NCBI GenBank assembly: GCA_029556545.1
Contig: JAKQEQ010000056.1
Coordinates: 1 to 64,000, forward strand
DNA from: Candidatus Hydrogenedentota bacterium
GTDB taxonomy: Bacteria; Hydrogenedentota; Hydrogenedentia; Hydrogenedentales; JAGMZX01
DNA: 64,000 nucleotides
Direction: 5' to 3'
Positions 3,193 to 8,789 of this stretch are shown here, in pieces. Every line of letters begins with the position of its first letter. Within the stretch, counting starts at the first letter, position 1. Made by a program: the position numbers and the translations under genes. The notes beneath the pieces are model-generated. The model saw only the letters and a list, made by a program, of their open reading frames with translations. It had not been told where the DNA came from and did not search any database.

Positions 3193-4095
3193 TCACGAAC
3201 CGGCGTCAGTCCCGCGGACGAAGGGTTTCACTTGCGCCTTGCCCAGTGTGCCGCGATAGGCCTCGACGCGCTGGAGCCAAGTGGTCCCCAGACTGAGGGA
3301 GCGCGCGCCGCGCGGGCTTTGCGTCGGGGCGACGCTCAAGTTGCTCCGCACGTCGGCGGGCAGTGTGCGATAGCTGAGCGGCGGCGCTTCGGCTTTGGCG
3401 TAACTCGCGCCGCGGATGGCCGGGACCTCGCGTCCGGTCGGGTGCCGCAAGACACGGGTGGACTTGATCAGGTCCATGGGGTCGGTCCCGTATTCGTACA
3501 GGTAAACGGGGCCGTAAACGCCGGTGCCGATCTCGCGGTTGTTCGCGTCCACGACGATCAGGTCCGTTCCATACCGATAATCGAGCATCGCGTCCAGCCA
3601 GTCGAAGGGCAGGCCGGTTTCGTAGTCATACGCGCCGAAGATACGTCCCTCCGAGAAGCCGTCGTTGTAGCCGTCGCTGAAGCCGCCGTCCAGCCACTCG
3701 ATGTGTTCGTCGCCCGCGATGTACTGCGGCCAATCAATGGCGAAAGCGGCGTCGTAGCCTTCGCTGAACCCGATGGTGAAGGCGTAGTCGTAATCGACGA
3801 AGTAGCCGTCGTTATAGGCGTACCATACTCCGTCCCAGAAGCCCGCCTCGTATGAGCCGTCGTCGTAATAGGGGATATCCGAGCCCTGGTAGTAGATGGG
3901 GCCGCCGTCGACGGTGTAGTAGCCGTCGTCGAAACCGGTCCAGTACCAGTCATCCTGGAGAAAGCCCTCGTCAAAACCAGCGTCATATTCGGGATTCGCG
4001 ATTTCGTCAATCGGGCAGCCGGCGAGCATCGCGGCCACGGCAACCATGCCGGGAAAGGCTAACGCCCGCGTGTTGGAGGAGAGTTTCCGCATCAT
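3193..4095 (-). CDS. Gly/Asp/Tyr-rich repeat lipoprotein
   Basis: I place the start at 4095 (MMRKLSSNTRALAF...), preceded by AAAGG about 10 bases upstream; this gives a signal peptide ending in the lipobox LAGC. The mature part (about residues 30-190) consists of irregular, very acidic and aromatic repeats of the type GF-x-DGY/GF-x-EGY (FDEGF, GFDDGYY, GFSEGYD, GFSDGYNDGFSEG), followed by a more ordinary basic C-terminal 100 residues. I recognise no family. It lies 53 bp downstream of the FecR/DUF6600 gene on the same strand, so the two are probably co-expressed and could form an envelope-associated pair. Confidence 0.8.
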   Translation of the reverse strand: MMRKLSSNTRALAFPGMVAVAAMLAGCPIDEIANPEYDAGFDEGFLQDDWYWTGFDDGYYTVDGGPIYYQGSDIPYYDDGSYEAGFWDGVWYAYNDGYFVDYDYAFTIGFSEGYDAAFAIDWPQYIAGDEHIEWLDGGFSDGYNDGFSEGRIFGAYDYETGLPFDWLDAMLDYRYGTDLIVVDANNREIGTGVYGPVYLYEYGTDPMDLIKSTRVLRHPTGREVPAIRGASYAKAEAPPLSYRTLPADVRSNLSVAPTQSPRGARSLSLGTTWLQRVEAYRGTLGKAQVKPFVRGTDAGS

Positions 4096-4148
4096 AGTGC
4101 TTGTACCTTTGTTCTCTGACACTAATTCACTATTCCAATTGCACGCCA

Positions 4149-6266
4149 TTATCGGCCCCGCCCGCCGGGGGCAGACCGGGTTGGGGCGCTCGAACCACGG
4201 GACGGCGCAGGGCTGCTCGGCGCGGTGTACGTGCGCGACGGCGCAGGGGCGCTCGGGGCCGTGTAGCTGCGCGATGGCGCGGAACTACGCGGGACCGTAT
4301 ATGTGCGCGACGGCACAGGGGCGCTCGGGGCCGTGTATGTGCGCGATGGCGCAGGGCTGCTGGGCGCGGATCGCGTAACCGGCGCACTGGGCGTCGGCGC
4401 GGCCGTGCGCGGGCTCGGGGCCGACCGAGTGGGCGCCGTGCGCACGGAGGTGCTGTCCGAGCGCGAAGGACCCGGAACCGTCCGCGTCACGGATGGCCCG
4501 GACGGGGTCGGCGTGGTCCTGATGGTCGGGCCGGTGGACCGCGACGGTCCCGAAGGGGCGGTCCGACCCGTGGAAGAAGCCGCCGGGGGCTCCGTGCGAA
4601 TTGACGGGCCCTTACGCTCGCCCGGTGTCCGCGGCGACACGGCGTCGGGCCGGGTCACCGAGGGCGCGGTGCGTTCCGGAGGCGACGCCGACGGCGCGCC
4701 TGGCGCGCCCGAACGGTCCGTGCGCGTGCGCCCGCGCGCGGCTTCGTTATCGACGTCGCTGCGCGCATTACGCACGGCGGCCGGCGCGCCGTCGCGGCCA
4801 ACGTCACCGCGCAGGAAGGCGTCGCGGCTGGGGCGTTCGATTTGGTTGATGGTGCGCACGTTCGCGCTGCGCCCGCCGGTGGCCGAGGCGGTGCGGACGC
4901 TACGCGGCGCGGCGGGGTCCACCGTGGAGAAGCGTTCGCGTCCGGCGCTGGCTTCGAGGACTCGCACACGATCAGTGGCGGCGCGCCCCGAAGGGCCATA
5001 GACTTCCGGTCCGCGGATGCTGCGCGGGGGATTGTAGTCGCGCACGGTGAGCCGGTTGTCCTGATAGGGGATGCGGTGGCGGTCGGGGTAACGGCTGCCG
5101 CCGTAGATGTTCCATATGGTCACGTTGTTGGCGTAAATGGTGGGGATGTTACTCCCATACAGCGGGCGAATGTAGCTCGGGCCCCAGTAGACGTAGTCAA
5201 CGGGCGCGAAGCTGCATGCATAGAAGTTCCATCGCAGGCCGCCGAGAGAGAAATACGACGCATTGCCCCAGAACACGGGCCTGTTGTAGAAGTCGATGGG
5301 CGTCCAGACGAAGTAGGGTCCATAGCGCGCGGTGGCGACCCAGGCCGGCGCCCAGATGGGGTCGTAACTCCAGCACCAGCCGTAGGTCGGGAAGTAGTTC
5401 CAGCGTCCGTAGTGCGACGTGATGTAGGAGAAGCCGTAGTGGCCGACCCAGACGTGGCCGTATGTCGGGACGTAGCTCCAATGGCCGTAGCGATACGGCA
5501 CGTAGTCCACGACAACGGTGGGACGCCAGTAGTGGCGATTCTCGACGTACACCCACTCGCCGGACGAGGCGAGTTCCGCCGCGCCCAGTGTGGTCGGCGT
5601 CACCGTGACGGTGCTGGGGACGCGACTGATGCCATTGACGAGGATTTCACAGCGCTCCCGGTTCCATGTATCGAAGGCGTCCTCGACCGCCCGGTCGAAG
5701 GCGACGGGGAGCGAGGGGAGCATACCGGGGTCGACGTACACACGCTGGGCGTCGACCACGGTAACGGGCTGGTCCCCGTTTGCACGGACAGTGGCGCGGC
5801 CCCAGCGCACCGACACCACCGTCGCGCCGTTTGCCGCGACGTCCACGCGGGAGTTCGTGTTCTTGTCCACCTGGACCGTGCCGGCCGGCGTGGTCACAAC
5901 GAACTCGCCGGTGGCGCGGTTAAGCCGATGAACATAGACCGACCCGACCCAGACACGCACGGTCGCGCTCGGGGGCAAGGCGGTGATTTCCGCCTTGCTG
6001 CCGTCGGCCATGCGGAGGTACGAGCCGCCGGCGAACTCGACCTCGGCAGTGCCCCGCTGGTCCACCCAGAGGGTGTCCCCGCCGAAGACCAACGTATTCG
6101 TCGGCGCATTGGCCCAGTCCGCGTCCTCGCGTCCCTGGACCATCGTGCTGCCGGCGTCAAAACTCACGCGCGCGTGCAACGCCTCCTGCGCGGAGACTGT
6201 CGGCGCCATAAGCAGGCTTGCGCCAAGGAGTAGCGCCAATCCTGGTAGTGTGCGACTGTTCTTCAT
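4149..6266 (-). CDS. Secreted FecR-domain / DUF6600-like protein with Pro-Ser-rich tail
   Basis: The 705-residue protein starts with a clear signal peptide (MKNSRTLPGLALLLGASLLM..VSAQE). Residues about 30-180 resemble a FecR domain (GDTLWVDQRGTAEVEF, GSYLRMADGSKAEI, VWVGSVYVHRL, TPAGTVQV). Residues about 230-400 are a Trp/Tyr-rich block (HWSYVPTYGHVWVGHYG, WAPAWVATARYGP) typical of DUF6600-type proteins. From about 410 the chain becomes low-complexity Pro/Ser/Arg/Thr with imperfect SAPSRTYTAP repeats to the end. The whole points to an envelope or surface protein. The repeated 3' end explains the repetitive DNA at 4190-4430. Confidence 0.85.
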   Translation of the reverse strand: MKNSRTLPGLALLLGASLLMAPTVSAQEALHARVSFDAGSTMVQGREDADWANAPTNTLVFGGDTLWVDQRGTAEVEFAGGSYLRMADGSKAEITALPPSATVRVWVGSVYVHRLNRATGEFVVTTPAGTVQVDKNTNSRVDVAANGATVVSVRWGRATVRANGDQPVTVVDAQRVYVDPGMLPSLPVAFDRAVEDAFDTWNRERCEILVNGISRVPSTVTVTPTTLGAAELASSGEWVYVENRHYWRPTVVVDYVPYRYGHWSYVPTYGHVWVGHYGFSYITSHYGRWNYFPTYGWCWSYDPIWAPAWVATARYGPYFVWTPIDFYNRPVFWGNASYFSLGGLRWNFYACSFAPVDYVYWGPSYIRPLYGSNIPTIYANNVTIWNIYGGSRYPDRHRIPYQDNRLTVRDYNPPRSIRGPEVYGPSGRAATDRVRVLEASAGRERFSTVDPAAPRSVRTASATGGRSANVRTINQIERPSRDAFLRGDVGRDGAPAAVRNARSDVDNEAARGRTRTDRSGAPGAPSASPPERTAPSVTRPDAVSPRTPGERKGPSIRTEPPAASSTGRTAPSGPSRSTGPTIRTTPTPSGPSVTRTVPGPSRSDSTSVRTAPTRSAPSPRTAAPTPSAPVTRSAPSSPAPSRTYTAPSAPVPSRTYTVPRSSAPSRSYTAPSAPAPSRTYTAPSSPAPSRGSSAPTRSAPGGRGR

Positions 6267-6640: not shown

Positions 6641-8443
6641 ATGAACGCAAACATACATAAAAGTCTGCATATCATCATTTCCCGATCACCGATCTTGGCG
6701 TGGAGCCTGGCCGCCGTCGTGGTTGCGTTGCATATCATCAGCACGCAGGCGCCGTCACAGAAGATACTCTGGCTGGGCGGAATATGCGGGGCGATCTTCC
6801 TGCTGACCGTGGGGGTACCGCTGGCTTCGTGGGGGCTTCGGGATGCGTGGCGTCGCTGGCACTCCGAAGCGTCGTTGTTTGCGGTTCCTCTATTCATTGT
6901 CCTGCTTTGCAGTCTTTCGGCGCGGTTGGGGCCGCCGCTGGCCGTCGCCGCGGCGACGGCGGCGGCGATGCACGTCACACAGCGTCGCATATACGGCCCG
7001 TTCAGGAGGCTGGAGACGGACGAGGCGGGCGCGCCTGCTCACGACGCAGAAGCAGCCGGCCGAGACGATACGGATGCGAGCGCGTGCGTCGGCACAGAAG
7101 AAGGGGGGGCGATTTCGAGCGAGCAGGCGGCGCGCGCGGTGGGTTGGGCCGGGCTCTGCTGTGCCGTCTTGGCGCTGGTTCTGTGGTTGCTTGTGCCCGC
7201 CCTGTCCGAGTTCTGGCGGTCCTGGGGCGGACCTTGGGCGGCGTTCCGGTTGATGGACGATGCGCCGGCCTGGACGCGCGGGGTGTATGCCGCCCTCGCG
7301 GCGCTGTCGGTATTAAGTCCCTTCGCGGTGCGTACGGGTTTTCGCGCGGTGATGGCGCAAGCGTGCGAGACGGGTCGCGCGTGGGGCATGCTGTTCCGGG
7401 ACGCTTCGGCGACGCGGACGCTGGGCGGAGTGACGCTCGCGGTCTTCGATAAGACCGGCACGCTGACCGAAGGGCGGCCATCGGTGCGCGAGGTTGCTTG
7501 CACGCGCGGCGTGACGGATCGGGGAATCCTGGCATGGGCCGCGGCGGTCGAGGCCCATGCGGCCCATGCGCTGGCGCGGGCCGTTATCGAGAGGTGTCAA
7601 CGCGACGGTATCTCCATCGAAGCGGCGGAAGATTACGAACCGGTTCCGGGGTTGGGCGGGGCCGCGCGGAAGGGCGAGGCAACGGTGCTGGTGGGGCGAC
7701 CCCGCCTGCTTCGGGAACGCGGCGTGGACTTGTCGGAGATGGAAGACGTCATCGCCGGACACCAGTCTCGGGGGGAGACCGTCGTCGTGGTGGCGGTAAA
7801 CGGACGTTTGGTGGGCGCGCTGGCGATGCACGACGCCTTGCGGCGTGATTCGGTCCGCGCGACGAAACTGCTGCGGGCTCTCGGCGTGCGCGCCGCGCTC
7901 ATCAGCGGCGACAACAAGGCGACGGCGACCGTGCTCGCGGAGCAGGCCGGGATCGAGCAAGTGGTCGCGGACGTGTTGCCCGGGGACCGCGCCTACGCGC
8001 TGGACCAGTTGCGGAGCGAGACCATCGGCAAGACGCTGTTTGTGAGCGCCTCTCCGGAAGACCGGGGCTTGTTGGCGCACGCGGACGCGGGGGCGGCGCT
8101 GTGCCCGGGGAAGGAATGCGGACCGCCGGAAGCGTCCGTCACCTTGACGGGGGGAGCATTGATTGGCGTTCCGTATGCGGTGCTGCTTGCCCGCGAGGCG
8201 CTGTCGAAAGCCATGATCAACGCGGTCTGGATCGTCGCGTACCATATCGTGGCGCTGGCGCTCGCGGTACTGGGTTTCATCCATCCGGCGGTCGGCGTTG
8301 GGATCTCGACGCTTGCGTGGGCGATAACGCATTGGAACGCGCGGCGCTTGGGGCGCTTCGATCCCGAGGCGTTCGGGCGGGAGATACTCGAGCGCGCGGC
8401 CCGGCGCGGCTTCACGGACGGATGGACGGGGGCTTGCCGCTGA
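6641..8443 (+). CDS. Degenerate P1B-type ATPase-like protein (no actuator, no CPC, no GDGxND)
   Basis: The 600-residue protein is recognisable as a heavy-metal P1B ATPase from the phosphorylation motif DKTGTLTEG (Asp270), the following P/N-domain layout and SGDNKATATVLAEQAGI (Asp424). Key family features are missing. The membrane CPC region reads LSPFAVRTG. Where the roughly 100-residue actuator with TGE should be there is only a short acidic/Ala-rich linker (about residues 125-170). The nucleotide-domain HP of S-x-HPLA is HALA. The hinge GDGxND reads SASPED (its first Asp replaced by Ala470). Hydrophobic helices remain at both ends. It may be a non-transporting regulatory or scavenging pseudo-ATPase rather than a pump. 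The arsenic genes lie several kb away on the other strand. Confidence 0.75.
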   Translation: MNANIHKSLHIIISRSPILAWSLAAVVVALHIISTQAPSQKILWLGGICGAIFLLTVGVPLASWGLRDAWRRWHSEASLFAVPLFIVLLCSLSARLGPPLAVAAATAAAMHVTQRRIYGPFRRLETDEAGAPAHDAEAAGRDDTDASACVGTEEGGAISSEQAARAVGWAGLCCAVLALVLWLLVPALSEFWRSWGGPWAAFRLMDDAPAWTRGVYAALAALSVLSPFAVRTGFRAVMAQACETGRAWGMLFRDASATRTLGGVTLAVFDKTGTLTEGRPSVREVACTRGVTDRGILAWAAAVEAHAAHALARAVIERCQRDGISIEAAEDYEPVPGLGGAARKGEATVLVGRPRLLRERGVDLSEMEDVIAGHQSRGETVVVVAVNGRLVGALAMHDALRRDSVRATKLLRALGVRAALISGDNKATATVLAEQAGIEQVVADVLPGDRAYALDQLRSETIGKTLFVSASPEDRGLLAHADAGAALCPGKECGPPEASVTLTGGALIGVPYAVLLAREALSKAMINAVWIVAYHIVALALAVLGFIHPAVGVGISTLAWAITHWNARRLGRFDPEAFGREILERAARRGFTDGWTGACR

Positions 8444-8510
8444 ATCGAAGTTGATCCACCGGTGCTGCCGGTGAGAATTCATTAGGCCCTGCCGTCCCCG
8501 CGCAGTAATT

Positions 8511-8629
8511 CGTGCTCGTAGTCGTGCTCGTGCTCGTAATCGGGAGTCCGATTCGTTGTCGTGCTCTGGCTCGTTCACTTGCACGAGCGGAAGACTCGAT
8601 TACGATTACGAGCACGAGCACGAGCACGC
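8511..8629. repeat. Long imperfect inverted repeat of CGTGCT/CGTAAT units
   Basis: The left arm (8511-8541) is built of CGTGCT and CGTAAT hexamer-like units; the right arm (8597-8629) is its near-perfect reverse complement (CGATTACGATTACGAGC...). About 55 bases separate the arms. It sits in the 346-bp gap between the P1B-like gene and the GDPD gene. It could fold into a large cruciform or RNA hairpin. The rest of the gap (8444-8510 and 8630-8789) shows no gene. Confidence 0.7.
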
Positions 8630-8789
8630 AATCGGTTCTTTGGCCCCTTGATGGGGCCTTCCTCATACCACGCGTTCTACGGGTGGTTACTGATCCCGGA
8701 TTGTCGTCCGCCGCGGGCGCGATGCATTCCATTCCGGGGTTCGGTATACTTCGGCCACGTTTCACGATTGTGGAAGGGAGCAAGCCGCC

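Follow-up and report, generated by a model that had tools for sequence, protein, structure and literature searches.

What has become of a P1B-type ATPase gene whose product lacks the parts that make it a pump? The question is raised by an open reading frame at positions 6641-8443 (plus strand) of the window, i.e. the 64,000-nucleotide stretch of a Candidatus Hydrogenedentota contig that we analysed. The frame comprises 600 codons, starts with ATG and has 0 internal stops. A preliminary description, made from the letters alone, had read it as an intact frame that has lost the actuator, the metal site and the GDGxND hinge but kept DKTGT, Asp270 and SGDN, and had suggested a preserved pseudo-pump with another function, perhaps phosphorylation-based regulation or metal buffering. 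It proposed a search for orthologues with the same losses, dN/dS across them and a comparison of an AlphaFold model with CopA; orthologues with intact motifs would instead mark the gene as merely decaying. In what follows, the genome from which the window contig comes (6.1 Mb, 96%-complete) is G000 and its copy of the gene L001, the same-genus genome is G001 and its copy L002, and L015 is a third actuator-less member from genome G014, which belongs to another family of the phylum. The features of the locus are:

6641-8443, plus strand: actuator-less, P1B-ATPase-derived probable pseudo-pump, 600 aa (open reading frame; TIGR01525/PF00702; syntenic same-genus orthologue L002)
6689-6994, plus strand: transmembrane helices 1-4, corresponding to MA, MB, M1 and M2, about residues 17-118 (AlphaFold, hydropathy peaks)
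6995-7117, plus strand: short disordered linker replacing the actuator, about residues 119-159 (pLDDT < 50 at 123-156; no PF00122)
7118-7381, plus strand: M3 and M4 helices, with CPC changed to SPF at 7316-7324 (alignment, motif table, model)
7448-7462, plus strand: retained DKTGT, residues 270-274; AAPGA in L002, EKTGV in L015 (motif table)
7481-7810, plus strand: N (nucleotide-binding) domain, AAHA for SEHP, PGxG retained (alignment, model; dN/dS 0.50)
7811-8149, plus strand: second P-domain segment, the most constrained; SGDN retained, Lys450Arg, SASPED at 8045-8062 (60% identity to L002; dN/dS 0.23, core 0.19)
8150-8440, plus strand: helices M5 and M6 with the C-terminal tail; YH for YN, STLAW for MAxSS (alignment, model)
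4149-6266, minus strand: divergent neighbour, FecR/DUF6600 protein (a 72% identical orthologue flanks the G001 pseudo-pump)

By descent, the gene is a P1B-type ATPase: homology, fold match and tree nesting agree. TIGR01525 matches the window protein with E=8e-62, although the 209.8 bits do not reach the family cut-off of 346 bits; PF00702 (HAD) matches with E=6e-22, and in a phmmer search the protein matches a CopA of known structure with E=1e-39, far beyond chance. In the tree, L001 and L002 are nested in a Hydrogenedentota HMA-CPCAMG subgroup, L003-L007 (98/95, 99/96). An AlphaFold model built from an input of 20 sequences (mean pLDDT 80.8) has eight membrane helices, the first four at residues 17-36, 40-70, 76-91 and 97-118. 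The N and P domains are modelled with confidence, and residues 119-159, which stand in the actuator's place, form a disordered linker. The comparison with CopA proposed beforehand gave a close match for the P and N head (Foldseek against 3a1d, TM 0.94, 1.6 A). According to the model, the N and P domains are folded, the membrane helices are present and the sole missing part would be the actuator. The protein thus resembles the CopA-type Cu+ P1B-1 ATPases (TIGR01525/TIGR01511; 3rfu, 7r0g) in fold, in MA-to-M6 order and in its N/P head, and differs from them in lacking HMA, actuator, CPC, TGE, PxxK and GDGxND and in scoring below the family cut-off.

Profile searches of the window protein found neither the PF00122 actuator nor the PF00403 HMA domain, and the remaining losses were read by aligning it with 35 intact relatives of the same phylum. 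SPF takes the place of CPC at 226-228, no TGE is present, and the relatives' SEHP has become AAHA at 307-310, which removes the Pro of the HP motif of the N domain. The third HAD motif, PxxK, reads PGDR at 447-450, with Lys changed to Arg at 450, and GDGxND reads SASPED at 469-474, so that the first Asp is now Ala and Asn is Glu while the last Asp is retained. At 534-535 YN has become YH, and, also in the part with M5, M6 and the C-terminal tail, MAxSS has become STLAW. DKTGT with Asp270 (270-274) and SGDN (422-425) are retained. The preliminary reading of the frame and of its motifs is confirmed; it had missed the Lys to Arg change, the lost HP-motif Pro and the missing HMA domain. Of what a functional pump needs, the window copy has DKTGT, and it has lost the actuator with its TGE, the GDGxND motif together with the Lys, and CPC together with the M5/M6 ligands. 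Judged by the established P-type mechanism, a protein that has neither actuator nor Mg-site Asp nor Cu site should be incapable of a transport cycle.

A search for orthologues with the same losses recovered L002, which is likewise 600 aa long and 44% identical to the window copy over its full length. In both genomes the pseudo-pump lies beside the same divergent FecR/DUF6600 gene, and the orthology of this neighbour (72% identity) supports that of the pseudo-pumps; no other conserved gene context was found between the G000 and G001 loci. L002 lacks the actuator and HMA domains as well and carries the identical changes SPF, YH, Lys450Arg and SASxED, from which it follows that the catalytic machinery was already broken in the common ancestor. 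We could thus reject an assembly artefact or the wreck of a single genome, given that an independent genome of the same genus has the same domain loss. L002 has gone further, with DKTGT changed to AAPGA, SEHP to GGDM and TGDN to AGED, and DKTGT is therefore not a conserved feature of the pseudo-pump family. Within the genus, the search turned up no orthologue that keeps its motifs; homologues that do are confined to other families. Neither GTDB contigs nor viral contigs yielded further orthologues with the pseudo-pump patterns, and the 65 genomes of the phylum that were examined besides those of L001, L002 and L015 contain no pseudo-pump.

Several features around the two loci were recorded. 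In the window, the FecR/DUF6600 gene adjoins a gene for a 318-aa protein (3196-4149, minus strand) with repeated D-x-GF/Y-x-DG-type motifs and without a Pfam match. An imperfect long palindrome 3' of the pseudo-pump (8510-8635) contains hexamer-like repeats (CGTGCTCGTGCTCGTAATCG / CGATTACGAGCACGAGCACG) and has a folding z-score of -5.7; with a 22-mer that occurs six times in exact copy across the genome, it is a REP- or MITE-like element. In G001, the end of a Ser/Thr kinase gene (L031:11245-12891, minus strand; zinc-ribbon-like N-terminus and MshEN) overlaps the pseudo-pump start by 8 nt. We rejected this kinase as an operon clue: it is absent beside the window copy and has no close orthologue in G000.

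Are these genes on their way out? Comparison of L001 with L002 gave dN=0.55, dS=1.25 and dN/dS=0.43 (bootstrap 0.33-0.54), a ratio that was obtained by simple counting on two sequences and could also cover a weakly constrained gene heading for loss. Since other orthologues of the G000/G001 pair have dS of 0.67-1.5, the dS of the pseudo-pump is not badly saturated. Most of these orthologues have dN/dS of about 0.1-0.2, and intact pumps of a sister genus have 0.11-0.13 at dS 1.2-1.3. Constraint on the pseudo-pump is relaxed in comparison with intact pumps, but it is clearly purifying. A neutral simulation predicted 6-17 stops per branch, the number varying with base composition, as opposed to the 0 observed, and indels between the two copies are of whole codons throughout. 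The divergence of L001 and L002 postdates the shared losses in full. The pair does not look like ordinary pseudogenes, with both frames open and dN/dS below 1 across two species; rather, as in a pseudo-pump, catalytic residues are gone and the frame is under purifying selection.

The main rival explanation, which we consider unlikely, is a slowly decaying relic, redundant after takeover by another exporter (the SO_0444 family, below), drifting to loss and constrained only against toxic membrane misfolding. A dN/dS that exceeds the value of intact pumps three- to fourfold is in line with it, as are the stronger erosion and longer branch of L002 (1.29 versus 0.6 for the window copy). The same holds for the equal rate at which catalytic and other residues have been lost: among columns invariant in intact pumps, 13/24 catalytic ones are kept versus 41/96 others (Fisher P=0.36). 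No special preservation of catalytic residues is seen, and the retention of DKTGT in the window copy is thus unexceptional. Against a relic speak losses that predate the species split, with frames that are nevertheless both open across a dS of 1.25, and the low dN/dS of the second P-domain segment, 0.23 with a core at 0.19; the first helices have 0.54 and the N domain 0.50.

Thus the suggestion of a preserved pseudo-pump gains from the shared losses, the open frames and a dN/dS well below 1, whereas neither of the two functions offered for it stands as a conserved role. Against metal buffering stand the loss of CPC and HMA and the fact that C319 and C488 are the only cysteines that the window copy has in common with L002. 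A phosphorylation-based regulator, in which Asp270 is still phosphorylated and its state is read by a partner, draws on the intact DKTGT and SGDN of the window copy; with Asp270 lost to AAPGA in L002 and replaced by Glu in the EKTGV of L015, with all three proteins lacking the catalytic Lys and the Asp that binds Mg, and with the dephosphorylating actuator missing, we regard it as very improbable.

Could some transport or metalloregulatory role remain, be it as a split or weak pump with a helper actuator or HMA protein, or as a passive or sensor channel? The helix residues H111 and H535 are common to both copies, and there is a precedent in PINA, the pineal night-specific splice form of ATP7B, which lacks the metal-binding domains and the first four helices and for which weak Cu transport in yeast has been reported (PMC3750203). 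PINA resembles the window protein in being a P1B ATPase without N-terminal metal-binding domains. The window protein, unlike PINA, keeps the first helices, and its actuator deletion and catalytic-motif substitutions are written in the genome; PINA, missing the N-terminal part only, should retain the catalytic and Cu-site residues that are lost here. Neither copy retains CPC, the hinge Asp or the catalytic Lys. A split pump whose actuator is encoded elsewhere was rejected, as a profile search found no PF00122 anywhere in the 96%-complete G000; G000 therefore encodes no complete P-type ATPase, and the pseudo-pump is its sole P-type ATPase relative. An HMA domain supplied by a second gene fared no better, the sole other HMA in G000 being the tail of an SO_0444-type Cu/Zn exporter. 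Taken together, a residual role appears improbable; by analogy, PINA may still serve as a warning that truncated P1B forms call for an experimental test before transport is judged.

Both genomes of the genus encode an SO_0444-family Cu/Zn efflux transporter that scores above the curated cut-off:

L160:4116-5387 (G000:C36) and L161:3869-5152 (G001:C19): SO_0444-family Cu/Zn efflux permease with a C-terminal HMA domain

Across 68 genomes, the SO_0444 exporter is present in 1/27 genomes with an intact CopA-type pump versus 27/41 without (P=1e-7, uncorrected for phylogeny). The distribution of SO_0444 in Hydrogenedentota is, in other words, largely complementary to that of intact CopA-type pumps. 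We propose that pumping became dispensable because the SO_0444-type exporter, with an HMA domain of its own, handles efflux.

A second lineage of the phylum preserves such a gene too, which argues against the relic explanation. L015 is a 665-codon open frame with a confident structure model from which the actuator is gone; CPC has become APC, DKTGT has become EKTGV, PxxK and GDGxND are lost, and an HMA domain is retained without its Cys pair. Like the window copy, it lacks actuator, PxxK and GDGxND in an open frame; its deletion boundaries, as aligned, and its locus differ. It is found by an M20 peptidase gene, at the place that an intact pump occupies in its relatives G037 and G007, and in the tree it groups with its own genus (87/89), apart from L001/L002 and with intact pumps as nearest relatives. 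A single origin of L015 and L001/L002 is not rejected (AU p 0.41), and the case for independence is therefore made by the locus and the deletion boundaries; given the locus, the simpler reading is that L015 probably arose separately. G014 lacks SO_0444 and has other intact P-type ATPases. A PF03601 membrane protein gene (L032:6969-8300) sits between the M20 peptidase gene and L015, whereas peptidase and intact pump are adjacent in the relatives. Tentatively, actuator-less P1B pseudo-pumps might form a recurrent maintained class, in which at least two Hydrogenedentota CopA-type pumps would have become non-catalytic P-domain membrane regulators.

On balance, we favour the explanation that the window gene is a CopA-derived, catalytically disabled pseudo-pump under selection, which would act as a scaffold or regulator through its P domain; it is probably a non-pumping membrane protein that has been preserved rather than a recent wreck. 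Its ancestor would have been a CopA-like copper-exporting P1B-1 ATPase with HMA, actuator, CPC and DKTGT, a type that sister families still have in intact form. Before the split of the two known species of the genus, HMA, actuator, Cu site, catalytic Lys and Mg-binding hinge Asp would have been lost, after which ATP hydrolysis could no longer have been coupled to transport. Purifying selection would then have retained the eight-helix membrane part and the folded N/P head, acting hardest on the later half of the P domain. The product may be anchored in the membrane as a non-catalytic scaffold or regulator, with a P-domain surface that docks a putative partner or senses a ligand with no phosphorylation cycle. 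DKTGT and SGDN, kept in the window copy and needless for a pure scaffold, count against this proposal, as does a gene context of which just the FecR neighbour is conserved. Among membrane pseudoenzymes, iRhoms have likewise lost their catalytic residues and kept the membrane fold, which is put to regulatory use; they belong to an unrelated family, the rhomboid proteases, in which the function is known, and we take the likeness as a lead only.

P-type ATPases are usually seen as all-or-nothing machines whose cycle depends on the actuator, and a literature search, mostly outside the subscription papers, found no description of an actuator-less or pseudo P-type ATPase. If our reading is true, a primary ion pump has here turned into a pseudoenzyme, in a genome without any other P-type ATPase, and selection can act on a function of its P domain and membrane part that involves no transport.
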